In this document: positions 21,163 through 60,926 of the stretch, in pieces
Layout: each line of letters opens with the position of its first letter
Position numbering within the stretch: position 1 is the stretch's first letter
Assembly: GCA_026120185.1 (NCBI GenBank)
Contig: JANUWF010001190.1
Location: forward strand, 620,001-684,000
Length of the DNA stretch: 64,000 bases
Reading direction: 5' to 3'
Origin: Voacanga thouarsii
Lineage: Eukaryota > Streptophyta > Magnoliopsida > Gentianales > Apocynaceae
The notes under the pieces: model-generated
Told to the model about the DNA's origin: nothing
The model's database searches: none
The model's input: only the letters and a program-made list of their open reading frames with translations
Translations under genes and position numbers: made by a program

Positions 21163-21530
21163 TGTTATAAAATTAGGGGTAGTGTTAGAATAAAATCTAC
21201 ACACTACACACTAAGAAAATTCTAACTATTCTTTGCACAAGAATTTCTCTTCAAACTTCTCTCTTTCTTTCTCTCACAATTCTTTCTCCAATCTTTCTTT
21301 CACTAATATTTCTTTCACAAAATGATGTTGTATTACAAGCTTAGAGAATAGCTCTATTTATAGAGCTCTAATTAGTGAAATACATCATGGCATACATCAT
21401 CTTCAACTAATCTCAATTAATGGTGTCTCCACTAAATGGTGGACATCCATAAAAATCTTCTAATAATTCACATAAATCCATAATTAGTGGAGCCTCCACT
21501 AATTAATGGAAATTCCAATAATTCATAACA
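21163..21530 (-). mobile_element. Solo LTR of the copia family, minus strand
   Basis: 368 bp, running TGTTATAAAATTAG to TAATTCATAACA on the plus strand. This is the reverse complement of the LTRs at 26311, 31318, 54361, 59601 and 60508. It is flanked by the perfect 5-bp target duplication AGTAA (21158-21162 and 21531-21535). No internal copia sequence adjoins it, so it is a solo LTR left by LTR-LTR recombination. Confidence 0.92.
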
Positions 21531-25239: not shown

Positions 25240-26310
25240 TGTAATTACCCAACCCAATTTAATTTGGGTTTTGTATTTTAACCGACCTATATTGTGACTA
25301 GTTTTTATGGACCATTAGATAGGTTATAAGCTTTAGAGGTCATGCGAGTTTTAGTTAAAATTGAGGGGTGTATTTGCTATTTAATTTTTAAAAGTTAAAC
25401 CTACGTCTTTATCTAAATGATATTCTCTAATTTTTACTATCAGTTGTACAGAACAAATCATTCGCGGGTTCCAGACACTGGAGAAGAAAGCTCTAAGGTT
25501 TTTCAATTTTGAAAGTGAGTTATATGGGGTTTGGTTCTTAATTTAGTTAGAGAATGATGATTAAATATTAGGAGATTCTCTTTCTCTTTATTTCTGAGCT
25601 TCTAGAATATAGGTTTAATTGATTCATTAAGGTGTTAGTTCCTTTGATTGATTTTGGTATTATATGATTTAATGTTAGGGAGTGATTGTGTTGAATAATT
25701 GGTTTGAATTGGAGATTTTAGTCTAACTTCCGAGGTAAGAAGTCTTAACATTTTTTGCTTTCAAGAAAGATATGAATTTTATTTTCGGTACAAATTTGAG
25801 GTTGAGTTTGGTTATTTTATTTGGTTTTGAATAATATCATAATGTGTGCTATGTGTGATGTGTGCTTTGGTTTATGGGTTTAGGAAAAGGGAGGAAGAAT
25901 ATGTTCTAAAATTTATGTGTGACTGAAATACCTCTCAATCACTAAGAAATCTCAGTTTGGTCTCTCTAGCGGAATAAATCATCGGGACTGATATCAGTGA
26001 TCTTCTTCCTCTCACGAGCATCCTCATATATCAAGAATGTATTCAGTTTGTTCTTTATATTGGAAATAAAATATATATGTGAAAAAAAAATGAGTTTTAA
26101 GAATTCTGTTATGCTTGAATGTATGTATATAAATATATGTTTTTAGGGAAAAAAAAAAAAAGAGTCCAAATGATGGATGGAACTGAAGCGTCTCTGAATT
26201 TTTGCATTTGTGTTTCGGCTTAGTGGATTCATTTAGTTCATTGCTTCGGTTTTTGGAAGGTTTTGTTGTTGCTGAGCTTTGGTTTCGAAAAAAAAAAAAA
26301 AGGTTCTAAG
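25240..26310 (+). repeat. Gypsy 5' LTR, first part
   Basis: Begins TGTAATTACCC and runs to the insertion point of the copia element. The first ~630 bp align with the 3' LTR at 37794-38428. The LTR resumes at 31690 and ends near 33054, just before a decayed primer-binding site. Confidence 0.75.
26306..26310. other. Target site duplication CTAAG, left
   Basis: CTAAG directly before the copia 5' LTR; the matching CTAAG is at 31685-31689. It shows that 26311-31684 entered the gypsy LTR as one unit. Confidence 0.95.
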
Positions 26311-26664
26311 TGTTATGAATTATTGGAATCTCCATTAATTAGTGGATGCTCCACTAATTATGGATTAATGTGAATTATTAGAAGATTTTTATGGATGTCC
26401 ATCATTTAGTGGAGACACAATTAATTGAGATTAGTTGAAGATGATGTATGCTATGATGTATTCCACTAATTAGAGCTCTATAAATAGAGCTATTCTCTAA
26501 ACTTGTAATACACCATCATTTTGTGAAAGAAAGATTAGTGAAAGAAAGATTAGAGAAAGAATTGTGAGAGAAAGAGAAGAGAAATTCTTGTGCAAAGAAT
26601 AGTTAGAATTTTCTTAGTGTGTAGTGTGTAGATTTTATTCTAACACTACCCTAATTTTATAACA
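26311..26664 (+). repeat. 5' LTR of copia-RKD element
   Basis: 354 bp, TGTTATGAAT to TTTTATAACA. Both LTRs of this element share ATGTATGCTATG, where the other family members read ATGTATGCCATG. It lacks 13 bp in the AGAAAGAGAGAAG stretch. It contains the TATA box TATAAATA, like its relatives. Confidence 0.95.
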
Positions 26665-26740
26665 CGTTATCGCACGAGTCTCTCGCCGTTATTAAAGCCG
26701 TAAGACATGTACGCATTTATTGATCTCGCTAAATTCGAAT

Positions 26741-27300
26741 TTGTAGCCCTTGATATTTCTGAAAAAAATTTATATGTCATACAGAAATGCATCTAAATGC
26801 TAAAAAAAAGGAGATCCATATGTCATGTGGATAAAAAGAAAGATTTGACCACCTGAAGATGGTCGTACTACCCACCGCACGGTATGAATGGTTGCACCCG
26901 AAGTTGCAAGATTGTAAAACCGTGAACTCCGTGATGTATAAAACTACATCTTAGTTAAAAATTTTACGGAGAAAAAGTTACCGATGAAGTTATATTGGAG
27001 AAGACATTCTCCACTTTTCATACCTCGAATATTGTCCTACAAGAATAATATCGAGAAAAATGGTATCCAAAATTGACAAATTTAACATGAGTTATTATTG
27101 AGAAATCATGAAGCCGTATGAACCGGCTCAACAAAGACTCCTGTAAGTGAATGTCGTTGGCTCCAGCAGAAGCCATCGTTATAGTCGTAGTTGTGGCAAG
27201 TGGCCGTGGTTATGGTCATGGACACACTCGATATTTCCCTTATCACGTAGAAATACCGGCCACCCGAAGTGGAACAGAAAAGATAATAAGGGAAAAAGAT
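26741..27300 (+). pseudogene. Copia gag remnant
   Basis: Matches the N-terminal and middle gag coding of 54829-55600 but with several internal deletions and frame changes. For example, the block encoding the first ~80 residues is reduced, and only part of the GRGHGRGRG-type basic segment remains. The zinc knuckle is absent, because the frame meets the captured RKD segment at about 27300. No functional Gag can be made from this copy as read. Confidence 0.85.
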
Positions 27301-27566
27301 ATTTCCATTAATAATAAGCATCACATCTTTTATTCATATCACTAGTGTTCATATGAACTTGAGGATACATGCTTATAGTTGCTCTTTTGTAATTGAGCCG
27401 ACAAATTTAAGATGAAGGTTTGTAATTGTTCTTTTTCAATATTTACATTAGAGGAAGACAAACAATTAGTAATTATGGACTTCAGCTCCTCTTTTTCGAC
27501 ATCCTCCTCCTTTTCTTTCCCCTTTGAGCCAAAGATCGAGACTAGCAGACAGAATTAGCCGTAAAA

Positions 27567-28747
27567 TTATCTGCGAAATGAGTCTTGAGATTTTATGATC
27601 TCCTTAAGTTTATTATAATTAAATTTCTTATTATATTTGGCCTTGAAGCATGCTTGTCTCAATTTCTGTGTTTGGTCCTCTAACCGCGTATTAGGACTTT
27701 CTTCCACCAACCGTTTTTCACATTCCAAGCATCGCAATGGCTTCTTTCAACTTCTTCTCACCCATATGTCCTCCTTCTTCTTTATTTTGCATCTCCCGTA
27801 AATCGAAGTGATATCATCGGTTATTTATTTATAAATCTTTCATAGTTTCATACTTGCAAATTATAAGTATGTATGAGAGAGAACTCGAACATTCTTAATT
27901 ATGGTCTCCAAGCTCACCAACTTCCCGTGAGGCCATCGACGAATTCCTAACTCCCTACATCTTTTCTTGAGACAGGTTATGCCAATATTCAGCTTCTTTG
28001 GTCGCGCTCTTGATTGGTAGGTAAAAGTATTGCGAAATTGTTTCTCTTGATAGTGTCTCGGGAGTTATTGCCCTTCTTCTCTCTCTCCCTCTTAATCATC
28101 TTCTTCTCCCCAGGAATTTTGTCTGCAATAATATCTTGAACTTCGATATTATGCATTTCATGAGTACTTACTCCGACTTCGTTGCCAAGACCACTCATTA
28201 TTTCTCCTAGAAAAAGAAAATAATATCGCAAAGGTAATACCATTCAAAATCCATGTTTAAATGTATAATAACCTGGAATCATATTCTGGCTTTGTTCAAA
28301 ATCCATTAGAGAGTAGAATGGATCATGCACAAGCATATCCTCATTCAAAGGAATAGCATCAAGAGGAACAGTATCAAAAGCAGTCTCTTGTAGGGGCAGA
28401 TCAACTTGGTCCAAAGCAAGATGTTCAAAACTTCCACCGATTTACATAAAAAACAAACCAAAAGAGAGTTTAATTTCATTATCAAGCACACTAAAAACAA
28501 ATGGAAGCCCTCAAAGGTATCTCACCTGAAATTAGGAGGAAGTGGTTGGTTTGGAAAGGAAAACATATCAAAATCTTCTCGTTCGAATTAGGCGTAGCGG
28601 TTGGTTTGGAAAGGAAAACATATCAAAATCTTCTCGTGTTTGAATTAGGCAGTAAGTGGTTGGTTTGGAAAGAAAAATACATCAACATCTCGCTGCGTAA
28701 ACCGAGTCAAAATTTGACCATGTCTCAAATGAATTACGAGTCTCCAT
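27567..28747 (-). pseudogene. RKD-type RWP-RK transcription factor gene (captured copy)
   Basis: RKD proteins are plant-specific DNA-binding regulators of egg-cell identity and early embryogenesis. On the minus strand: ATG at 28747; exon 1 28526-28747; exon 2 28273-28430; exon 3 27885-28206; exon 4 27567-27792. The intervening introns are 95, 66 and 92 bp. Exon 3 carries the RWP-RK core: TLSRETISQYFYLPI, then LKKRCRELGIRRWPH, with RWPHGK at 27921-27938 (RWPHRK is usual). Exon 4 carries the leucine-rich C-terminal part ending LRQACFKAKY, also typical of RKDs. As written, the frame is broken at about 27725, 27990, 28057, 28578, 28633, 28650 and 28689. Nearly all of these are CAG/CTG-derived sites. 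Reading them as CAG or CTG gives one frame of about 306 codons. It may therefore be an intact gene misread, or a real pseudogene. Confidence 0.9.
28544..28690 (-). repeat. Triplicated ~57-bp unit in RKD exon 1
   Basis: GGTTGGTTTGGAAAG starts at 28544, 28599 and 28658 (periods 55 and 59). On the minus strand each unit encodes a variant of DFDMFSFPNQPL. After allowing for the CAG/CTG anomalies each unit is a multiple of three, so the triplication lengthens the N-terminal region in frame. Confidence 0.85.
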
Positions 28748-29009
28748 ATCTCGCTTTGTGATTTTTGTTTTTGATGTTTACTAATGATCGATAACCGAGA
28801 TATATATCGATACATATATATATATATATATATATCTCGTATGAGGAAGAAGAAGAGGTAGATGGTAGGTAGAGGGTCTGGAGGAGAAGAAAAGACAAGA
28901 GAGGAAGAGGAAAAGTCGGTACGGGAAGAGTGAAAAAAAAAAGGAGATATTTTTCTTGGCATTTTCTCGCTTGTCATCATTTTCTTATATTTCTTTTCTT
29001 ATTCTCTTG

Positions 29010-31192
29010 TGAAATCATTATTCCCTAAATTAGGGGGAGAACATAAACAAGACAAGAAAGATCGTGATTGGACAACATCATTAAATTATCTTGATCCGCA
29101 TACAAGCGCGTGTGAACTTGAAGTTCAAAAGATAATTCATTTGTAAAGCATTGCAAATCAAATGTCGTACGCTTTTGTTGACTCTAGAAGAGTAACAAAA
29201 TCGCATATGCCAGCCTATAAATGCTCCTATTCTAATTGAAGTTCCAGCAGAACAAAATATTATACCTATAGTCGCTGAGTCAAAAGCACGCCGTAAGCGT
29301 GGCCGACCTCTTGGTTCTAAAGATAAAAATCCTCGAAAGAAAAGAGGATTAACTGATCCGAAGATCATATTGAAGAAAAGAATGATAAAGACCAAGAGAG
29401 AACTCGATGACAAAGAACCGTAAGTTGATGAAAGTAACACCGAAATTTCTATCAATTATACCACTTCCTGTAGAAGTTGGAATCGGATAGAAACTCGTTA
29501 TTGATAATATATTTGCATACAATATATCTCTTGATGTTACACAGATAATGATGATCCCGAACCAATATCGCTTGATGAATGTCTGCATAGAAAAGATTGG
29601 CCGCAATGGAAAGATGCGATTCAATCGGAGTTAAATGCACCGACAAAACGTGAAGTCTTCGGACTCGCAGTCCGAACACCGTAAGGTGTAAAACCCGTTG
29701 GCTACAAATGGATATTTGTGCGAAAGCGCAATGAAAAGAGTGAAATCGTTCGATATAAAGCGCGATTAGTAGCCCAAGGTTTTTCACAAAGACCAGGTAT
29801 TGATTATGATGAAACTTATTCTCCCGTTGTTGATGCTATTACACTCCGATATCTTATCGCTTGGCAAGACATGAAAAGATAGATATGCGCCTATTAGATG
29901 TTGTCACCGCTACTTGTATGGAAATTTAGAAAATGATGTTTACATGAAAATCCCCGAAGGATTTCATATGCCTCGAAGCATATAAACATTATCCTCGTGA
30001 AAATTACTCCATCAAGTTGCAGTAAATCATTATATGGCCTCGAAGCAACTGGGCGCATGTGGTTCACACGCCTTAGTGAATATTTATTGAAAGCGGATTT
30101 AAAAATGACCAGGTATGTCCATGTGTTTTTATTAAGAAATCTGGTTCTAAATTTGTGATATTAGCTATATATGTTGATGATATTAATCTTATTGGAACTC
30201 CCGAAGAGCTCCAAGAAACAATTGATTATTTAAAAAGAGAATTCAAATCAAGGATTTTGGTAAAACCAAATTTTGCCTTGGTTTACAAATTGAACATTTG
30301 GAGAGTGGAACATTTATTCATCAATCAACATATACAAAGAAAAGTGCTAAAAAGATTTTACATGGACAAAGCACATCCATTGAGTATTCCAATGATCGTC
30401 CGATCATTAAATGTGGATAAAGATCCTTTCCGACCTCAAGAAAATGATGAAGAACTCCTTGGTCCTCAAGTACCATATCTCAAAGGCAATTGGTGCATTG
30501 ATGTATCTTGCTAATAATACACGACTCGATATTGCTTTTGCCGTCAATTTATTAGCAAGATTTAGTTCTTCACCAACACGACGACATTGGAATGGAATTA
30601 AACAAGTCCTTCGATATCTCCAAGGTACAATTGATCTCGGATTATTTTATTCAAATAAAACCAATCCAACATTGATAGGTTATGCAGATGCTGGTTATTT
30701 ATCTGATCCACATAAAGCACGTTCTCAAACGGGCTATCTATTTACATGTGGAAATACTGCTATATCATGGCGTTCTACGAAACAATCTATAGCAGCCTAC
30801 TTCTTCAAATCATGCCGAAATTATAGCCATTCATGAAGCAAGTCGAGAATGTGTATGGCTAAGATCCATGATTCATTATATCCGAGAAAGTTGTGGATTA
30901 TCATCAATCAAAGATATTCCAACTCCTCTTTATGAAGACAATGCAACTTGCATAGCTCAATTACGAGGAGGATATATTAAAGGAGATCGGACAAAACATA
31001 TTTCACCAAAATTCTTCTTTACTCATGAACTCCGTAAGAAATGTGAAATTGATGTGCTACAAATTCGGTCATGTGATAACCTCGCAGATATTTTCACGAA
31101 GACTTTACCGACTGCAACATTTGAGAAGTTGAGATATAAAATCGGTATGCGTCGGTTTAAAGATTTAAAGGAATCATCTCATCATGGGGAGT
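29010..31192 (+). pseudogene. Copia distal pol (INT end, RT, RNase H), broken
   Basis: Collinear with 57291-59476 of the full-length relative at high identity. It includes the RT motif YVDDINLIGT (about 30168-30200) and the RNase H region with YEDNATCIAQ and GDRTKHISPKFF, ending near HHGE. Frame shifts separate the segments at 30155-30514, 30411-30836 and 30868-31194. Many shifts fall where the relative has CAG or CTG. The catalytic front part of integrase and the protease are missing, so it cannot supply its own integration functions. Confidence 0.9.
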
Positions 31193-31317
31193 AATAAATA
31201 GACATATAGAATAGTGTACTCTTTTTCCTTCACTAGATTTTTTTCCCACTGGGTTTTTATCTAGTAAGGTTTTAACGAGGCATATTCTTTATGTATGGAT
31301 GGACATCCAATGGGGAG

Positions 31318-31684
31318 TGTTATGAATTATTGGAATCTCCATTAATTAGTGGAGGCTCCACTAATTATGGATTTATGTGAATTATTAGAAGATTTTTATG
31401 GATGTCCACCATTTAGTGGAGACACCATTAATTGAGATTAGTTGAAGATGATGTATGCTATGATGTATTCCACTAATTAGAGCTCTATAAATAGAGCTAT
31501 TCTCTAAGCTTGTAATACACCATCATTTTGTGAAAGAAAGATTAGTGAAAGAAAGATTAGAGAAAGAATTGTGAGAGAAAGAAAGAGAGAAGTTTGAAGA
31601 GAAATTCTTGTGCAAAGAATAGTTAGAATTTTCTTAGTGTGTAGTGTGTAGATTTTATTCTAACACTACCCTAATTTTATAACA
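31318..31684 (+). repeat. 3' LTR of copia-RKD element
   Basis: 367 bp, TGTTATGAAT to TTTTATAACA, preceded by a degraded purine tract (TGGGGAG at 31311-31317) and followed by CTAAG (31685-31689). Confidence 0.95.
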
Positions 31685-32060
31685 CTAAGTTATTTTTTAC
31701 CCTTTAAAAAGGAAAAGAGTTGGTGGTTGTTGGTTTTTTTTTTTTTTTTTGGGTCTTATTCAAAATGCATTAAAGTTTCTGCAATGGAAAAAAGAAAAAA
31801 AAGCTTTGTTCCAGTGAGCCACTACCTGCGGTTTTATTTTCTTTTGCCATAGAGACATTAGTGACGGTTCCCCATCAATTTTTAAGGGGACAAAAAACTG
31901 CTATACATGAGCCCATGGCAGTGGGCCATGTATGCCTTGGTTTTTTAGAGCACAAAAGAAGCCCAACCTTGTTTTACCTTCCATACATGAGCCCAACTAA
32001 TATTTTATATCCTCGTGTTATTGGGCCGGACTTGTCTGTTTTAAATTTAAATTTGTAATA

Positions 32061-37793: not shown

Positions 37794-38428
37794 TGTAAAA
37801 ACTTAACCCAATTTAATTTGGGTTTTGTATTTTGATTACCTATATTATGACTCAGTTTTTATGGCCTATTAGATAGGCCATAGACTTTGGAGGTTGGAAG
37901 TTTTAGTTAAAATTGAGGGGTGTATTTGTTATTTAGTTTTTAAGAGTTAAACTTACGTTTTTATCTAAATGATATTCTCTAGTTTTCAATGTCAATTGCA
38001 CAGAATGATCATTCACGGGTTCCAGACATTGGGGGAGAAAGCTCTGAAGTTCTTCAATCTTAAAGGTAAGTTCTATTGGTTTTGGTTTTTAATTTAGTTA
38101 AAGAATAAGGATTAAATATTAGGAGATTCTCTTCCTCTTTAGTTATAGGATTCTAGAATATAGGTTTAATTAATTCATTAGGGTGTTAGTTCATTTGATT
38201 GATTTTGGTGTACCTTGGTTTGATATGATATTAGGGAGTGATTGTGCTAAGTAATTAACTTGAGTTGGGAATTTTAGTCTGACATTCGAAGTAAGTGATT
38301 TTGACATATTCTGTTTTCAAAAAATATATATATGAATTTTATTTTCTGTATAAATTTAGAATTGAGTTTGGTTATTTTGTTTTGGTTTTGAACAATTTGA
38401 TGGTTTGTGTTGTGTGTGATGTGTGGAC
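37794..38428 (+). repeat. Gypsy 3' LTR, truncated
   Basis: Starts TGTAAAAACTTAACCC after the purine-containing AAAGGAGTAGAA and aligns with 25240-25868. It is broken off at GTGTGATGTGTG, where unrelated DNA begins. Confidence 0.8.
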
Positions 38429-50332: not shown

Positions 50333-52760
50333 AGAAAACCTTTCACTAGTGTAACTAGAGAGACCAAAATTTTGAAATTAGTGCATAGTGATTTAGGTGA
50401 TTCACAGCCAACCAACTAAAGGAGGTAAATTATATTATATCACATTCATCGATGACTTTTCAAGATTTTGCTTTGCGTATTTGTTACATGCTAAAAATGA
50501 AGCTCTTGACATGTTTAAGATTTATAAATTAGAATGTGAAAATCAATTTAGTACCTCTATAAAATGCCTTAGGACAAATAGAGGTGGTGAATACTATGAT
50601 CGTGATTATTTTGAAAATGTTGGTGTGGTACATGAATTGACAGCTCCCAATTCCCCTCAGCAAAATGGGATAGCGGAAAGAGAAAATCGAACCCTTATTA
50701 AGATGGTTAATGCTTTGCTTTCCAATTCTGGACTATGCAAAGGATTTTGGGGTAAAGCGTTACTAACAGTCTGTCATATTCTTAATAGAGTGCCTATTAA
50801 AAGAAAATCTATAACTCTTATAAGTTGTGGAAGAAATGTAAACCCAATTTAAATTACCCAAAGATATGGGGTTGTAGAGCTTTTGTTAAGCTTCCTGAAC
50901 CAAAAGTAAGAAAAATTGGTGAAAGAGGAGCAAAATGTATTTTCCTTGATTATGCTTCTAACAATAAAGCATACAAATTCATGGTTATTGAACCAAATAA
51001 TTCTGTTGGTTTCAATACTGTGATAGAATCCATAGATGCCATCTTTGATGAAAATCAATTTACTTCAATACCAAAAATTTCAAAACCTTCAACAGAAAAT
51101 CAAATGGTTGAAAAGACTCATAGAGATGAAACAGTAAGTAAAGAAATTAAATTGAGTAGAAGTAAAGAAGGAGAATCAATAAGTATTTTAATTCTGACTT
51201 CTATACATTCCTAGTCGACGGTACTAGAGAGGATCAATGTAATGAGGTCATGGTTCTAGATGATCTTGAAAATGATCCAAAAACATATGAAGAGGCCATA
51301 AAGTCTCAAAAAGCTATATTCCGGAAAAAAGCAGTAAAGGAAAAGATAGATTCCATTATGAAAAATCATACTTGGGAATTCGTAAAATTGCCACCTGGTT
51401 GGAAACCAATTAGTTGCAAATGAATCTTCAAAGAAAAGAAGAAATTCAATGGATCAGTCCACAAGTTTGCAGGTAGACTTGTTGCTAAGAGCTAAACTTG
51501 TTGCTAAGGGCTTTACTCAAAGCTGTGATATCAATTATTTTGATACATATGCACCAGTGGCAAGAATGACCACTATTAGAGTGCTATTGTCTCTGGCATC
51601 TATATATCACTTTGAAATTCACCAAATAGGTGTTAAAACATATACCTAAATGGTAAATTAGATGAAGAAATATATATGGAACAGCCAAAAAAACTTGTTG
51701 CCAAGGGACAAGAAAATAAAGTTTGCAAATTAAATAAGTCCCTATATGGGCTTAAGCAAGTTCTAAAGCAGTGGCATGAAAAGTTTGTTAAGGTTCTCTT
51801 ATTAAATGGGTCCAAGATACATGACTCTGACAAATGTGTATACACCAAAGTAGCTACGAGTGATTGTGTCTCCATATGCTTATATGTCGACGATATGTTA
51901 ATTTTTGGTTTTGATATAGAACAAGTGAAAACTATGAAGAAATTCTTATATGAGAATTATGACATGAAGGATATGGGATGTGCTGATATAATTCTTGAAA
52001 TTAAAATTACCAAAGTTGGTAATAAAATCTCACTTTCTCAGTCACATTATGTTGAGAAACTCTTGAGAAAGTTTAGTCTAGCCAACTATAATCATTCAGT
52101 CAGTACCCCATTCGATAGCAGTTTGAAGCTCACTCAATGATGGTAGAGCTGTAGCTCAATTGCATTATGCAAGCGCAATTGGATGTCTAATGTACTTAAT
52201 GAGTTGTAGAAGAACAAATATATCATTTGTTGTTGGTAAACTTAGCCAATTTACTAGTAACCCAAATAGTTTGCATTGGCAGGGCATTTATTGTGTACTT
52301 AAATATCTCAAGAAGGCAATTGACTATCAATTATGTTATTCTGGTGAACCAGTAGTCCTTGAAGGGTTTACTGATGCCAGCTAGATAACTGAGAGTGAGG
52401 ATTACTCATCCACAAATGGTTGGTAATTTACCCTAGGTGGTGGTGTTGTTTCTTGGAGTTCAAAGAAACAAACTTGTAAGTTGACTCTATAATGGCAGCT
52501 AAACTTGTTGCTCTTGCGTCTGGATGTAAAGAAGTTGAATGGTTAAGGAATCTGTTACTTGAAATTCCAATTTGGCCTAAACCAATACCACCTATTACCA
52601 TCCATTGTGATAGTCAGTCGAATATCTCTAAAGTGTACAATGTTGTGTATAATGGAAAGTCACAACATATTGGGATGAGGCACAACATGATTCGATAAAT
52701 GATTAATTATGGTATTGTGTTTATAAACTTCGTCAAATCTAGCAGACCCTTTGACTAAAC
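50333..52760 (+). pseudogene. 5'-truncated copia pol (INT-RT-RNase H)
   Basis: A different copia lineage from the other elements here. The frame starts inside integrase (LVHSDLGDSQPTKGGKLYY, then FIDDFSRF, NSPQQNGIAERENRT with the catalytic Glu). RT follows (LVAKGFTQSCDINYFDTYAP, KSLYGLKQ, LYVDDMLIF at about 51880), then RNase H (CLMYLMSCRRTNI, DSQSNI, KSQHIGMRHNMIR). Stops and shifts separate the pieces at 50397-50852, 50825-51214, 51449-51649, 51676-52140, 52160-52384 and 52492-52698. Gag, protease and the 5' LTR are absent. Confidence 0.9.
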
Positions 52761-53590: not shown

Positions 53591-54360
53591 CTATAAGTGG
53601 GGGCAAATTCGCTTTAAGGAAAGAGTTCCAAATACTTGATTGAAGTATCTTTAAACTCTGTATGCAAATCTTAAATGTATCACTATAGTCGACGATTATA
53701 ATTAACTATTCCAATACAGTCGATTTTACATCAACAAATCTCCAATAAATTCTTTTGTATAATACAAATTCGTGACGTAAATAAGTAAATCTTAAATCAT
53801 TACATACTTAATCTAATATTTATAGGTCACAAGCTCGAAATCATTACATACTCTACGATCCTTTGCTAAGACAAACGTCCCTTTCTCTTATCTTTTGATT
53901 AGTTAAAAGGGAAATGTAACGCATATCATTGAGTGCGCCTCAGACAGAGTAATCTGATTATGGGATCATTTGTGGAAGGAGATTTTTTTTCTCTCTGTCT
54001 ATCTAGGCTTCCTGCCAAATAGAAAACCGCCGCCGCAGTACGCAATAGGAAAAGGGCCAGCAATACTTGTAAGTGACTATCAAAGCATGCACTTCGCTTT
54101 TGCCTTTGAGCCCCCCACCCATTCCAAGTCCCCACCAAAAAAAAAAATATAAAAAAAATAAAAAATAAAGGCATGTATCAGACTACAAGTCCAATACGAA
54201 ATGGATAAATGAGTAAGTATGCTTTAAATTATAAGGTCAGGAAAAAGATTAAATTTGAAACTTTACCAATTTAATAATTATCTTGTCTTTATGTTAAAGT
54301 ATTTTTAAAAAAATAAAAAAGTCACAAGAAAAATAAATATATCTGTTAATAATAACAAAT
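53591..54360. other. Intergenic DNA before the full-length copia
   Basis: No gene recognised. The last five bases, CAAAT (54356-54360), are the left target duplication of the copia element. Confidence 0.6.
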
Positions 54361-54727
54361 TGTTATGAATTATTGGAATCTCCATTAATTAGTGGAGGCT
54401 CCACTAATTATGGATTTATGTGAATTATTAGAAGATTTTTATGAATGTCCACCATTTAGTGGAGACACCATTAATTGAGATTAGTTGAAGATGATGTATG
54501 CCATGATGTATTCCACTAATTAGAGCTCTATAAATAGAGCTATTCTCTAAGCTTGTAATACACCATCATTTTGTGAAAGAAAGATTAGTGAAAGAAAGAT
54601 TAGAGAAAGAATTGTGAGAGAAAGAAAGAGAGAAGTTTGAAGAGAAATTTTTGTGCAAAGAATAGTTAGAATTTTCTTAGTGTGTAGTGTGTAGATTTTA
54701 TTCTAACACTACCCTAATTTTATAACA
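54361..54727 (+). repeat. 5' LTR of full-length copia
   Basis: TGTTATGAAT...TATAACA. Contains the TATA box at 54529-54536 and a purine-rich GAAAGAAAGATTAG direct repeat near 54575-54620. No CAG or CTG is present in this LTR. Confidence 0.97.
54529..54536 (+). promoter_or_regulatory. LTR TATA box within an inverted repeat
   Basis: TATAAATA sits in AGCTCTATAAATAGAGCT, a perfect inverted repeat with 7-bp arms. It is conserved in all six LTRs of the family in this window. Confidence 0.75.
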
Positions 54728-54745
54728 CGTTATCAGCACGAGTCT
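54728..54745 (+). other. Unusual copia primer-binding site
   Basis: The sequence after the LTR is CGTTATCAGCACGAGTCT. It is not the usual initiator-Met site TGGTATCAGAGC, though TATCAG is shared. The RKD-carrying copy reads CGTTATCGCACGAG here. Confidence 0.5.
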
Positions 54746-54828
54746 CTATCCGTACAAAAGTCAGAAGACTAAGCACGAGTTTCTGTCTTGACCAAAACCA
54801 GAATACAGGTACGCATTTATTGATCTAT

Positions 54829-55896
54829 ATGGCTAATCTCGCTAAACTCGAATTTGTAACCCTTGATATTTCTGGAAAAAATTATATGTCATGGGTTCTC
54901 GATGCAGAAATGCATCTAAATGCTGAAGGCTTTAGTGAAACTATTCAAGCACATAATAGTGCATCTGCATAACACAAGGCTAAAGCTTTGATTTTTATTC
55001 GTCGTCATCTCGATGAAAATTTGAAAACGGAATATCTTACCGAAAAAGATCCATATGGCCTGTGGGTAAATTTAAAAGAAAGATTTGACCACCTGAAGAT
55101 GGTCGTACTACCCACTGCACGGTATGAATGGTTGCACCTGAGGTTGCAAGATTTTAAAACCGTGAATGAATATAGCTCCGCAATGTATAAAATTACATCT
55201 CAATTAAAATTATGCGGAGAAAAAGTGATTGATGAAGATATGTTGGATAAGACATTCTCCACCTTTTATGCCTCGAATATTGTCCTGCAGCAACAATATT
55301 GAGAAAAGGGGTATACAAAATTTACAGATTTAATTACTGCCCTCCTCATTGCAGAGAAAAATAATGAGTTATTATTGAGAAATCATGAAGCCAGACCAAC
55401 TGGCTCAACAGCACTCCCAGAAGTGAATGTTGTTGGCTCCAGCAGAAGCCATCGTTATAGTCGTGGTCGTGGCCATGGCCGTGACCGTGGCCGTGGTTAT
55501 GGTCGTAGACACGCTCGATATTTCTCTTATCACAATTATAATCAAACTGTGAGAAATACTGGCCACCTGAAGTGGAACAGAAAAGATCATAAGGGAAAAG
55601 AAAAAGAAATTGAAGAAAAGCATGAGGATATATGTTATAGATGTGGCATGAAAGGTCATTGGTCACGAAACTGTCGTACGGCTAAGCATTTAGTTGAATT
55701 GTATCAAGCTTCATTGAAAAATAAAAATGTGAAAGCAAATTTTTCTCAATATCCAATAAATAATGCTGAGGATGATTATATTGATCCTGAAGATCTTAAT
55801 ATCAATATTACCCATATGGATGTATCGGATTTTTTTGAACACCCAAACGGTAGGATAGACCGTTTAATTGGTGATGGCAGTGTCCAGAAGAACTAA
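54829..55896 (+). pseudogene. Copia gag, two in-frame stops
   Basis: Gag forms the particle that packages element RNA. The frame begins MANLAKLEFVTLDISG at 54829 and runs about 355 codons. It has a Gly/Arg/His-rich basic stretch (about 55455-55515) and a CCHC zinc knuckle CYRCGMKGHWSRNC at 55633-55674. TAA near 54970 and TGA near 55300 interrupt it; the TGA stands where the sister copy has CGA, consistent with methyl-C deamination. It ends at TAA 55894-55896, ahead of a T-rich spacer and the protease frame. Confidence 0.85.
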
Positions 55897-55978
55897 AGCC
55901 TCACCCTGATATTTTTGTATTTTCATTTTCATTCTATTTTAATAATATTTACGTTTGCATATATATATTTGTGTTCAG

Positions 55979-58900
55979 ATGGCTGTTGTTAATGATGATG
56001 TATGCATTATTGATAGTGGAACTACACACACCATACTAAAAAATGAGAAATATTTTTCTAATCTCAAAATGGGAGAAATAAATATTTATACGATAAAAGG
56101 TAGTGCAGATGTAATTGAGGGCTCCGGAAGAGCTAGTATATTGTTGCCTAAAGGAACAACAATTATTATTGATAAGGCATTATTTTCCTCAAAATCCAGA
56201 AGAAATTTATTGAGTTTTAAAGATATCCGCAGAAATGGGTATCATGTTGAAACAAATGAGGAAAATGGGATTGAACATCTTTTTATTACTCAAATGTATT
56301 TGGGTAAGAAATCGGTATTAGAAAAACTGCCGTTTTTTTTCTACTGGTCTATATTTTGTAAAAATACGTACAATTGAAATTCATCATCTAGTAAATCAGA
56401 AGTTTACTGATCCTATTACTTTTAGCATTTGGCATGACCGGTTGGGTCATCCGGGATCTACCATGATGAGAAGAATCATTGAGAATACACATGGTCATCC
56501 TTTAAAAAATAAAAAGATATTAACATCAAAAAAATTCGCATGTACTGCATGTTTCCTAGGAAAATTAATTGTTAAACCATCACCAGTAAAAGTAGGAGCT
56601 GAAAGTCCTACATTTCTCGAACGGATTCACGGAGATATTTGTGGACCTATTGATCCACCATGTGGACCGTTCAAATATTTTATGATCTTAATTGATGCAT
56701 CATTTCGATGGTCACATATATGTTTATTATCTACTCGCAACCTGGCGTTTGCGAGATTACTTGCTCAAATAATTAAATTACGAGCACAATTTCCGGACCA
56801 TCACATTAAAAATATCCGTTTGGATAATGTTGGTGAATTCTCATCACATGCTTTTGATGCATATTGCATGTCAATTGGGATTAATGTTGAACATCCTGTA
56901 GCTCATGTTCACACACAAAATGGTCTTGCTGAATCTTTGATTAAACGATTACAATTAATTGCTAGACCATTATTAATGAAAACAAATCTCCCAACATCTG
57001 CTTGGGGACATGCTATTCTACATGCTGCAACACTTGTACGTATAAGACCAGCTAGTTATCATAAATTTTCTCATTTGCAATTGGCTTTTGGGTCAGAATC
57101 AAATATTACTCATTTAAGAATTTTTGGGTGTGTTGTATATATTCCAATTGCACCAAACCAACGTACAAAGATGGGTCCTCAAAGAAGAAAGGGGATATAC
57201 GTTGGATATGATTCTCCCTCTATTATCAGGTATGTTGAACCCCTGATAGGAGATGTATTCATAGCAAGATTTGCTGATTGTCATTTTGATGAATCATTAT
57301 TCCCTAAATTAGGGGGAGAACCAAAACAGCATAAAAATGATCTTGCTTGGACAACATCATTAAATTATCTTGATCCGCGCACAAGCGCATGTGAACTTGA
57401 AGTTCAAAAGATAATTCATTTGCAAAGCATTGCAAATCAAATGCCAGACGCTTTTGTTGACTCCAGAAGAGTTACAAAATCGCATATTCCAGCTATAAAT
57501 GCTCCTATTCGAATTGAAATTCCAGCAGAACAAAATATTATACCTATAGCTGCTGAGTCAAAAACACGCCAGAAGCGTGGCCGACCTCTTGGTTCTAAAG
57601 ATAAAAATCCTCGAAAAAAAGAGGATTAAATGATCCCAGAAGATCATATTGAAGAAAAGAATGATAAAGACCAAGAGAGAACCGATGACAAAGAACCGAG
57701 AAATTGATGAAAGTAACACCGAAATTTCTATCAATTATACCACTTCCGGTAGAAGTTGGAATCGGATAGAAACTGTTATTGATAATATATTTGCATACAA
57801 TATATCTCTTGATGTTACACAGGATAATGATGATCCTGAACTAATATCAGTTTATGAATGTCGACATAGAAAAGATTAGCTACAATGGAAAGATGCGATT
57901 CAATCGGAGTTAAATGCACTGACAAAACGTGAAGTTTTCGGACCTGCAGTCCGAACACCAGAAGGTGTAAAACCTGTTGGCTACAAATGGATATTTGTGC
58001 GAAAGCGCAATGAAAAGAGTGAAATCGTTCGATATAAAGCGCGATTAGTAGCCCAAGGTTTTTCACAAAAACCAGGTATTGACTATGATGAAACTTATTC
58101 TCCTATTGTTGATGCTATTTTACTCCGATATCTTATCAGTTTGGCAGTACATGAAAAGATAGAGATGCGCCTATTAGATGTTGTCACTGCTTACTTGTAT
58201 GGAAATTTAGAAAATGATGTTTACATGAAAATCCCCGAAAGATTTCATATGCCTGAAGCATATAAACATTATCCTCGTGAAAATTACTCCATCAAATTGC
58301 ATAAATCATTATATGGCCTGAAGCAATCTGGGTGCATGTGGTTCACACGTCTTAGTGAATATTTATTGAAAGCGGGATTTAAAAATGACCAGGTATGTCC
58401 ATGTGTTTTTATTAAGAAATCTGGTTCTAAATTTGTGATATTAGTTATATATGTTGATGATATTAATCTTATTGGAACTCCTGAAGAGCTCCAAGAAACA
58501 ATTGATTATTTAAAAAGAGAATTCGAAATTAAGGATTTTGGTAAAACCAAATTTTGTCTTGGTTTACAAATTGAACATCTGGAGAGTGGAACATTTATTC
58601 ATCAATCAACATATACTGACAAAAGTGCTAAAAGATTTTACATGGACAAAGCACATCCATTGAGTATTCCAATGATCGTCCGATCATTAAATGTGGATAA
58701 AGATCCTTTCAGACCTCAAGAAAATGATGAAGAACTCCTTGGTCCTGAAGTACCATATCTCGAGTGCAATTGGTGCATTGATGTATCTTGCTAATAATAC
58801 AAGACTCGATATTGCTTTTCTTGTCAATTTATTAGCAAGATTTAGTTCTTCACCAATACGACGACATTGGAATGGAATTAAACAAGTCCTTCGATATCTC

Positions 58901-59476
58901 CAAGGTACAATTGATCTCGGATTATTTTATTCAAATAAAACCAGTCCAACATTGATAGGTTATGCGAGATCTTGGTTATTTATCTGATCCACATAAAGCA
59001 CGTTCTCAAACGGGCTATCTATTTACATGTGGAAATACTTGCTATATCATGGCGTTCTACGAAACAATCTATAGCGACTACTTCTTCAAATCATGCTTGA
59101 AATTATAGCCATTCATGAAGCAAGTCGAGAATGTGTATGGCTAAGATCCATGATTCATTATATCCGAGAAAGTTGTGGATTATCATCAATCAAAGATATT
59201 CCAACTCCTTTTTATGAAGACAATGCAGCTTGCATAGCTCAATTACGAGGAGGGTATTTTAAAGGAGATCGGACAAAACATATTTCACCAAAATTATTCT
59301 TTACTCATGAACTCCAGAAGAAAAGTGAAATTGATGTGCTACAAATTCGGTCATGTGATAACCTCGCAAATATTTTCACGAAGACTTTACCGACTGCAAC
59401 ATTTGAAAAGTTGAGATATAAAATCGGTATGCGTCGGTTTAAAGATTTAAAGGAATCATCTCATCAGGGAGAGTAA
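55979..59476 (+). pseudogene. Copia pol (PR-INT-RT-RNase H), broken frames
   Basis: Protease active site DSGTTHT at 56012-56032. Integrase has WHDRLGHPG plus CxxC zinc region (about 56430-56560) and catalytic D, D and E in HGDICGP (about 56628), RLDNVGEF (about 56817) and NGLAES (about 56920). RT has KARLVAQGFSQ, SLYGLKQSG and YVDDINLIG (about 58448). RNase H has YEDNAACIAQ and GDRTKHISPK, ending at 59476. Frames break near 56330, 57629, 57880, 58790 and 58965-59095. Several breaks sit at CAG/CTG sites where the sister copy is normal (for example GCGAGATCTTGG versus GCAGATGCTGG). It may be nearly intact in reality. Confidence 0.88.
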
Positions 59477-59591
59477 TAAACAAACATATAGAATAGTGTA
59501 CTCTTTTTCCTTCACTAGATTTTTTTTCCCACTGGATTTTTATCTAGTAAGGTTTTAACGAGGCATATTCTTTATGTATGGATGGACATCC

Positions 59592-59600
59592 AAGGGGGAG
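59592..59600 (+). other. Polypurine tract
   Basis: AAGGGGGAG directly before the 3' LTR; primes plus-strand DNA synthesis in LTR elements. Confidence 0.85.
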
Positions 59601-59967
59601 TGTTATGAATTATTGGAATTTCCATTAATTAGTGGAGGCTCCACTAATTATGGATTTATGTGAATTATTAGAAGATTTTTATGGATGTCTACCATTTAGT
59701 GGAGACACCATTAATTGAGATTAGTTGAAGATGATGTATGCCATGATGTATTTCACTAATTAGAGCTCTATAAATAGAGCTATTCTCTAAGCTTGTAATA
59801 CACCATCATTTTGTGAAAGAAAGATTAGTGAAAGAAAGATTAGAGAAAGAATTGTGAGTGAAAGAAAGAGAGAAGTTTGAAGAGAAATTCTTGTGCAAAG
59901 AATAGTTAGAATTTTCTTAGTGTGTAGTGTGTAGATTTTATTCTAACACTACCCTAATTTTATAACA
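59601..59967 (+). repeat. 3' LTR of full-length copia
   Basis: 367 bp. It shares the derived GTATTTCAC (others GTATTCCAC) with the extra LTR at 60508, and is followed by the target duplication CAAAT. Confidence 0.97.
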
Positions 59968-60507
59968 CAAATCAATAATTTATTAATTGTCAAAAAGTAA
60001 AAATGAGAAAAACATATTTCAATATTAATCTCTTTAAATTATAATTATTTTTAAAAATCAAAAGAAAAAGAAAACCAATAAAGAAAATGATCTTTCTTTT
60101 TACTCTTTTACTGCAAACGAACTCTCAAAGTAAGTGCTTGATCTTGTACATTTGTCATGAAAATGAGGATTACAATGAGACACGTGGAGGATTTGGATTT
60201 GCAAAGGCAAATGGAATAAGATGGCTTAAATTGCATAAGAATATCGATCCATAGCCTACCAATTCATGCACACGTTCAATTAGGCACTTATCTATAAGTT
60301 TCAAAGTCCACGATATTAATGTTGTTGTTCCTCTAAAATTAAGCATGAGGAAGCATATGTTTGTGCAACTTTGAATACTCAAAACTTGTACGTGTCATTT
60401 TACTTTTTCCTTTTTGGTGTATTGAATACAAAGGTTATTCTAGACAATTTCATTTGCAACGTTTCAAATGCCTTGGAAGTAAAATTCATATCTCATATAT
60501 ATATTCG
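59968..60507. other. Flank between 3' LTR and extra LTR
   Basis: 540 bp. The first 53 bp (59968-60020) recur after the LTR at 60508. Short minus-strand frame 60170-60382 is unidentified. No gene recognised. Confidence 0.6.
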
Positions 60508-60926
60508 TGTTATGAATTATTGGAATCTCCATTAATTAGTGGAGGCTCCACTAATTATGGATTTATGTGAATTATTAGAAGATTTTTATGGATGTCCACC
60601 ATTTAGTGGAGACACCATTAATTGAGATTAGTTGAAGATGATGTATGCCATGATGTATTTCACTAATTAGAGCTCTATAAATAGAGCTATTCTCTAAGCT
60701 TGTAATACACCATCATTTTGTGAAAGAAAGATTAGTGAAAGAAAGATTAGAGAAAGAATTGTGAGAGAAAGAAAGAGAGAAGTTTGAATAGAAATTCTTG
60801 TGCAAAGAATAGTTAGAATTTTCTTAGTGTGTAGTGTGTAGATTTTATTCTAACACTACCCTAATTTATAACACAAATCAATAATTTATTAATTGTCAAA
60901 AAGTAAAAATGAGAAAAACATATTTC
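60508..60926 (+). repeat. Extra copia LTR plus duplicated 53-bp flank
   Basis: 60508-60873 is a 366-bp LTR. 60874-60926 is identical to 59968-60020, the DNA just downstream of the full-length element. The LTR shares the private GTATTTCAC variant with the 3' LTR at 59601. So this is a duplicate of LTR + flank, not an independent insertion. The left edge coincides exactly with the LTR start, preceded by ATATATTCG. Confidence 0.93.

Follow-up and report, generated by a model that had tools for sequence, protein, structure and literature searches.

The window analysed here is a stretch of 64,000 nucleotides (nt) of the Voacanga thouarsii genome (contig JANUWF010001190.1, positions 620,001 to 684,000 of the forward strand). 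It contains a long terminal repeat (LTR) retrotransposon, element A, inside which a plant gene of the RKD type (RWP-RK family) lies in antisense orientation. We interpret element A as a Ty1/copia element in which the antisense, intron-bearing RKD gene has replaced the zinc knuckle, the protease region and the integrase, and the gene copy as a now degenerate, probably silenced passenger; we give this reading a probability of about 0.75. The structure of the element, the orientation of the gene, the gene model and a collinear sister copy of the element (copy B) were observed directly. RKD-type genes help decide egg-cell fate. The original prediction had proposed that a copia element captured an RKD gene in antisense, and the LTRs, the target site duplication (TSD), the collinear copy B and the nearly full gene model all speak for it. 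The coordinates of the features are collected in Table 1.

Architecture of element A and of its RKD-free sister copy

The LTRs and the perfect CTAAG duplication that had been described for element A are present. Both LTRs start with TGTTATGA and end with TTATAACA, and the near-identical LTR pair, the TG...CA ends and the 5-bp target duplication are those of a Ty1/copia element. Between the LTRs the order of units is a gag remnant, about 1.7 kb of minus-strand RKD (RWP-RK) sequence and a pol remnant; a purine-rich GGGGAG precedes the 3' LTR. The pol remnant retains a reverse transcriptase (RT) of the copia type, with matches to RVT_2 (PF07727) at 29685-29882 (65.4 bits, cutoff 31.6) and at 30080-30514 (28.5 bits, below the cutoff), and the integrase core is gone from A. 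Because the protease region and the integrase core are missing, element A is regarded as a non-autonomous member of Ty1/copia that could move only with outside help. The matches found in a search with the copia RT are spread over many plant families.

Copy B serves as a natural control within the same window. Its domains follow the order gag, zinc knuckle, Pol_BBD, integrase and RVT_2, and the position of the integrase before the RT identifies it as copia; the match to the integrase core (rve) stays below threshold (22.6 bits against a cutoff of 32.6), and those to gag_pre-integrs and the SH3-like domain exceed theirs. Two stretches of element A align with copy B, one reaching from the 5' LTR to about 27296, the other beginning at about 29007-29013 and continuing through the 3' LTR; the left edge of the RKD block lies near 27296/27297 and the right edge anywhere within 29000-29013. 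The counterpart of the block in copy B runs from 55600 to about 57288 (~1.68 kb) and comprises the zinc knuckle, the protease-region domain Pol_BBD, gag_pre-integrs, the SH3-like domain and the sub-threshold integrase core. Element A has the RKD block where this copia stretch would be, and we therefore regard the block as a replacement, similar in length, and not as a simple insertion. Measured against the domain content of copy B, the earlier claim that about 1.7 kb of gag, protease and integrase had been replaced holds for the zinc knuckle, the protease region and the integrase, and has to be narrowed for gag, of which the capsid part persists in eroded form.

One of the two full copies of the family in the window carries the insert. 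In aligned columns, A and B are 86.6% identical in gag and 95.3% identical in pol. Nine gaps of 5-112 nt leave the gag of A 243 nt short relative to copy B. In the 5' LTR of A there are five private substitutions together with a gap of 13 nt; neither is seen in its 3' LTR. We rejected the dating of element A by LTR divergence, because this asymmetry, with private changes confined to the 5' LTR, and the suspected read errors described below make an LTR-based age meaningless.

Table 1. Features of element A, of copy B and of their family in the window
Feature	Position	Strand	Remarks
Copia element A (Ty1/copia)	26311-31684	+	LTRs, TSD, RVT_2
TSD CTAAG, left and right of element A	26306-26310 and 31685-31689		Perfect match
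5' LTR, element A	26311-26664	+	354 bp; 13 bp shorter through gap
Eroded gag (capsid part), element A	26665-27296	+	Alignment to copy B
Captured RKD block, element A	27297-29012	-	No copy B match here
RKD exon 1	28526-28747	-	ATG 28747; ~57-nt unit x3; frame disrupted
RKD intron 1	28440-28525	-	86 nt; GT donor, acceptor without AG
RKD exon 2	28273-28439	-	Profile-to-DNA alignment
RKD intron 2	28207-28272	-	66 nt; GT-AG
RKD exon 3, RWP-RK domain	27885-28206	-	Frameshifts 28060, 27996
RKD intron 3	27796-27884	-	89 nt; GT donor, acceptor without AG
RKD exon 4 to acidic C-terminal region	27444-27795	-	Frameshifts 27732, 27581, 27516
Integrase end, RT and RNase H part, element A	29013-31317	+	Stops, frameshifts
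3' LTR, element A	31318-31684	+	367 bp
Copy B, same copia family, RKD-free	54361-59967	+	gag, zinc knuckle, Pol_BBD, integrase, RT
TSD CAAAT of copy B	54356-54360 and 59968-59972		
LTR copies of the family	26311-26664, 31318-31684, 54361-54727, 59601-59967, 21163-21530 (-), 60508-60874		

The captured RKD gene and its relatives

A minus-strand open reading frame (ORF) at 27861-28064 matches the Pfam RWP-RK domain PF02042 with E = 1.9e-12 (47.3 bits, cutoff 29.3). The plant protein search suggested along with the original prediction, made here with the read-through protein of the block, returned RWP-RK matches: 368 proteins were found at E <= 1e-3, with 120 of these listed, and the top match is an RWP-RK protein from Fraxinus, which is 46% identical over 92% (E 1.9e-52). 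Both results bear out the RWP-RK sequence that had been read on the minus strand. The leading relatives among the matches listed come from Fraxinus, Olea and Abeliophyllum (45-51% identity). Many of the matches listed in this search and in the second one below (120 each) have no subfamily name; those that have one are all RKD, except for an NLP1-like protein of Salvia splendens (P0271). With its RWP-RK domain, its overall layout and best listed matches that are RKD and not NLP, the block is assigned to the RKD type. A second protein search, with a four-sequence alignment as the query, gave 863 matches, and among the best 120 listed none was clearly closer, the best reaching 52% (Abeliophyllum, over at least half of the query). 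A quick 60-row tree pairs the block with a Catharanthus RKD (SH-aLRT 93) and places it at the end of a long branch within a mostly asterid part. The RKD matches lean to the asterids, the Apocynaceae side is weakly favoured and no close relative appears among the matches listed. Because pol is 95.3% like that of copy B and the listed RKDs reach at most 52% over at least half of the query, most of the divergence of the RKD block should have arisen in the donor lineage or before the capture took place.

For the gene model, a profile of 106 plant RKD-type proteins taken from the listed matches was aligned to the minus strand, with frameshifts and introns allowed. The model spans profile columns 1-304 of 306, from the ATG at 28747 to an end near 27444, and the block holds nearly a whole gene with four exons and three introns. 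An AATAAA on the minus strand, 32 nt ahead of the block's left edge, is, as a weak indication, compatible with the end of the RKD gene. Exon 1 contains three tandem units of about 57 nt (28527-28690), each encoding a version of FDMFSFPNQPL in some frame; a fourth gap in the alignment was rejected as an intron, as it falls on this repeat, where the frame is disrupted. The splice borders had been described as intact, which holds for the donors (GT in 3 of 3) and fails for the acceptors, only one of the three having AG. The copy carries five frameshifts, and conserved residues are changed in 14 of 82 aligned columns (columns at least 85% conserved), among them the second R of RWPxRK, which is G. 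With the five frameshifts and the R to G change, to which sequence error may contribute, the copy has no intact ORF with an RWPxRK motif, and on these features it reads as degenerate.

Recurrent changes and possible sequence error in element A

Part of the damage in element A is possibly an artefact, because a recurrent change resembles a systematic sequencing error. None of the seven plus-strand CCAGAA sites of copy B that align to A is kept, and four of the seven read CCGTAA in A, irrespective of the reading frame; the change at 29679 creates a stop. The 64 kb contain nine occurrences of CCGTAA or TTACGG, of which eight are in the interior of A: gag and the RKD block have two each and pol has four. 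For the gag, the insert and the pol of A, the observed to expected ratios of CAG/CTG are 0.49, 0.51 and 0.46, respectively, compared with 0.82-0.83 elsewhere (31690-54000 and 1-26300) and with 1.39 in the gag, 0.88 in the middle and 0.87 in the pol of copy B. Of the 68 CAG/CTG sites of copy B, 18 are kept in A, 24 have a CG in A only, 2 have a CG in both copies, 18 are otherwise different and 6 fall in gaps; of the 29 sites of A, 18 are kept in B and 4 have a gained CG. The two copies differ by 154 events, with a CG in A only at 38 and in B only at 14. We know of no mutation process that gives the CCAGAA to CCGTAA pattern. If CG sites were deaminated in copy B, this could account for the CCG/CTG part, but not for the CCAGAA to CCGTAA change. 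We think it rather likely that a nanopore base caller misread methylated CAG/CTG as CG and that the errors were left uncorrected. According to a review (PMC7501810; here and below, papers are cited from their available excerpts), methyl groups disturb base calling and the training data for methylation calling by Guppy of Oxford Nanopore Technologies (ONT) were human and microbial only; the available excerpt of this review contains no description of the CCAGAA to CCGTAA motif.

Several observations speak against such an error. Copy B, which is expected to be methylated as well, is free of the pattern, and uneven polishing therefore has to be assumed. The CAG/CTG deficit of the insert alone is weak, as 45 of 552 segments of equal length outside A are as low or lower; its CG level is reached in 147 of the 552 and its ratio of CG to CAG/CTG in 66. 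Certain 1-kb segments outside A are even poorer in CAG/CTG. Three further repeat pairs have 2 to 7 CAG/CTG per member, too few to be used as controls, and a fourth pair (two LTR copies) has none at all. The binomial value for CCGTAA (6.6e-9) is descriptive only, because the motif was picked after viewing the data.

These changes also touch the gene model. Plant splice acceptors often read CAG, and CCGTAA sits on one of the AG-less RKD acceptors (27796), so the splice sites may have been better in life than they are in the assembled sequence. Given the recurrent CCAGAA to CCGTAA and CAG/CTG to CG changes, the frameshifts were retained only by half as proof of decay. More generally, broken frames in such elements may partly be sequencing error, perhaps at methylated CAG/CTG sites, and should be read with this warning.

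Origin of the arrangement and alternative explanations

The LTRs and the TSD fit two routes of capture alike. In one, two template switches onto an antisense RKD transcript would have taken place during reverse transcription, and the transcript captured would have been unspliced because it is antisense. In the other, the repair of a DNA break would have copied a host RKD locus into an existing element. The introns would not be introns in the RNA of the element, and because they are antisense to the element transcript they would survive the RNA cycle. Today the RKD copy would be a degenerate, probably silenced passenger without demonstrated product or regulatory effect. Some points weigh against this reading. 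Movement after the capture is not demonstrated, because only one insert-bearing copy is known. The left half of A (5' LTR and gag) is far more damaged than pol, as the identities to copy B given above indicate, and this excess leaves room for a local assembly problem. Sequence error may lie behind some of the RKD frameshifts and missing splice sites, and for this reason the term degenerate rests mainly on the amino-acid changes. In the tree, no branch with a support of at least 95 and up to half of the rows contains the RKD block.

An assembly problem of this kind could have created the arrangement itself, by joining reads of an RKD locus to copia reads, in which case the block would not be physically inside A. 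Element A does look badly read, with the recurrent CCAGAA to CCGTAA change relative to copy B and numerous short gaps, and the copia identity stops sharply at both edges of the block. A chimera would nevertheless require two independent joins that leave collinear copia on both sides together with matching LTRs and a TSD, and CCGTAA/TTACGG flanks the block and enters it, as for one uniformly read stretch, the signal within the insert alone being weak. We consider a chimera unlikely. The block may also have arrived as, or together with, another mobile element, such as a Pack-type DNA transposon or a Helitron, that landed in the copia element, and such elements carry the majority of captured genes in two cereals, Helitrons in maize and Pack-MULEs in rice (PMC7264820). 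In element A, however, about 1.68 kb of copia is replaced rather than interrupted, and no inverted repeat of at least 12 nt pairs the ends of the block (Helitron ends were not searched for), so that an arrival of this type is quite improbable.

The remaining alternatives concern function. Transcripts from the 5' LTR that contain antisense RKD could silence the donor gene through double-stranded RNA (dsRNA) or small interfering RNA (siRNA) and so alter egg-cell or embryo fate. Silencing of the donor by such RNA, or a spread of RKD copies, had been proposed in the original prediction. The orientation of the block is compatible with this, and so is the composition of the LTRs. The window has six LTR copies of the family, each with 36-39 C and 67-73 G, and not one of them contains CG, CAG, CTG or CCG; therefore no symmetric methylation site is on offer by which they could be marked. 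When one LTR was shuffled 20,000 times at the mononucleotide level, no shuffle was free of CG, CAG and CTG (mean 12.8). Deamination over time is a plain alternative explanation of the missing sites. If the CAG/CTG anomaly reflects methylated sites, however, the body of A is heavily methylated and probably silent, and we consider silencing of the donor very unlikely. In principle, antisense RNA could give element A a regulatory role. In transgenic orange, antisense CitRKD1 abolished somatic embryogenesis (PMC6090715). We regard as extremely unlikely the fuller proposal of an active carrier, whose methylation-escaping LTRs would transcribe the intron-bearing antisense RKD, silence the donor in the ovule and tune egg-cell or embryo fate, the antisense orientation having enabled travel as RNA.

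Neighbouring repeats

The LTR that follows copy B is repeated along with about 50 bp of 3' flank (59600-60020 compared with 60507-60926, 98.8% over 421 bp). Because of this shared flank it is probably not an independent solo LTR; the 3' end of copy B was probably duplicated locally in part. A repeat pair at 25251-25864 and 37805-38425 flanks element A (82% over ~620 bp, ~12.5 kb apart), and the insertion of A may have taken place within or next to a repeat element that is older and larger. Another copia remnant, at 50397-52137, holds fragments of an integrase core (PF00665) and of a reverse transcriptase (PF07727).

Comparison with known systems

The original prediction regarded the antisense capture of a germline regulator as a new regulatory arrangement. 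This was too strong, as antisense ORFs, small RNAs of LTR-captured genes and overlaps of RWP-RK genes with LTR elements have all been published (PMC7264820, PMC3726574, PMC10011142). In the open-licence literature, searched mostly by title and the start of the abstract, we found no report of an RKD gene inside a copia element. The significance of element A is that it shows clearly, and with copy B close by as a natural control, how an LTR element can harbour a near-whole, intron-bearing transcription-factor gene of host type, in an orientation described as unusual in a review. If other copies carry the insert, antisense capture would be shown to preserve introns through retrotransposition.

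Host genes captured by LTR elements are common, numbering 672 in rice and 1343 in sorghum (PMC3726574), and a higher percentage of those in rice have turned into pseudogenes (PMC3726574, PMC7264820). Element A resembles these cases, for example maize Bs1, in having a host gene between its LTRs. Transduced genes in plant LTR elements are usually sense-oriented (PMC7264820), whereas the RKD gene of A is antisense, has kept three introns and replaces the protease region and the integrase; the antisense orientation and the retained introns are its unusual points. Coding sequence antisense to gag-pol is likewise found in the additional ORFs of Grande (gene23), RIRE2 and Retand. These ORFs are located between pol and the 3' LTR, are shared by all or most members of the respective families and have no clear similarity to other proteins according to the available text (PMC7264820). 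The RKD gene of A, in contrast, is inside gag-pol, is known from one copy and has clear kinship to a host gene family.

RWP-RK genes that overlap intact LTR elements or are encompassed by them (PMC10011142) represent the same type of association as element A, and an early LTR expansion has been proposed as linked to the growth of the RWP-RK family in pearl millet (PMC10011142); compared with these cases, A holds a degenerate single copy. Mobile DNA also meets an RKD gene in citrus, where CitRKD1 is accompanied by a miniature inverted-repeat transposable element (MITE; PMC6090715), and in mango, where there is a promoter insertion (PMC10709545). In citrus the MITE lies upstream of a working RKD gene and the allele supplies the main transcript (PMC6090715), whereas in A a broken RKD gene lies inside the mobile element. 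Element A is of a kind already known, to which its antisense, intron-bearing RKD gene, standing where protease and integrase would be, adds a new instance with unusual features.
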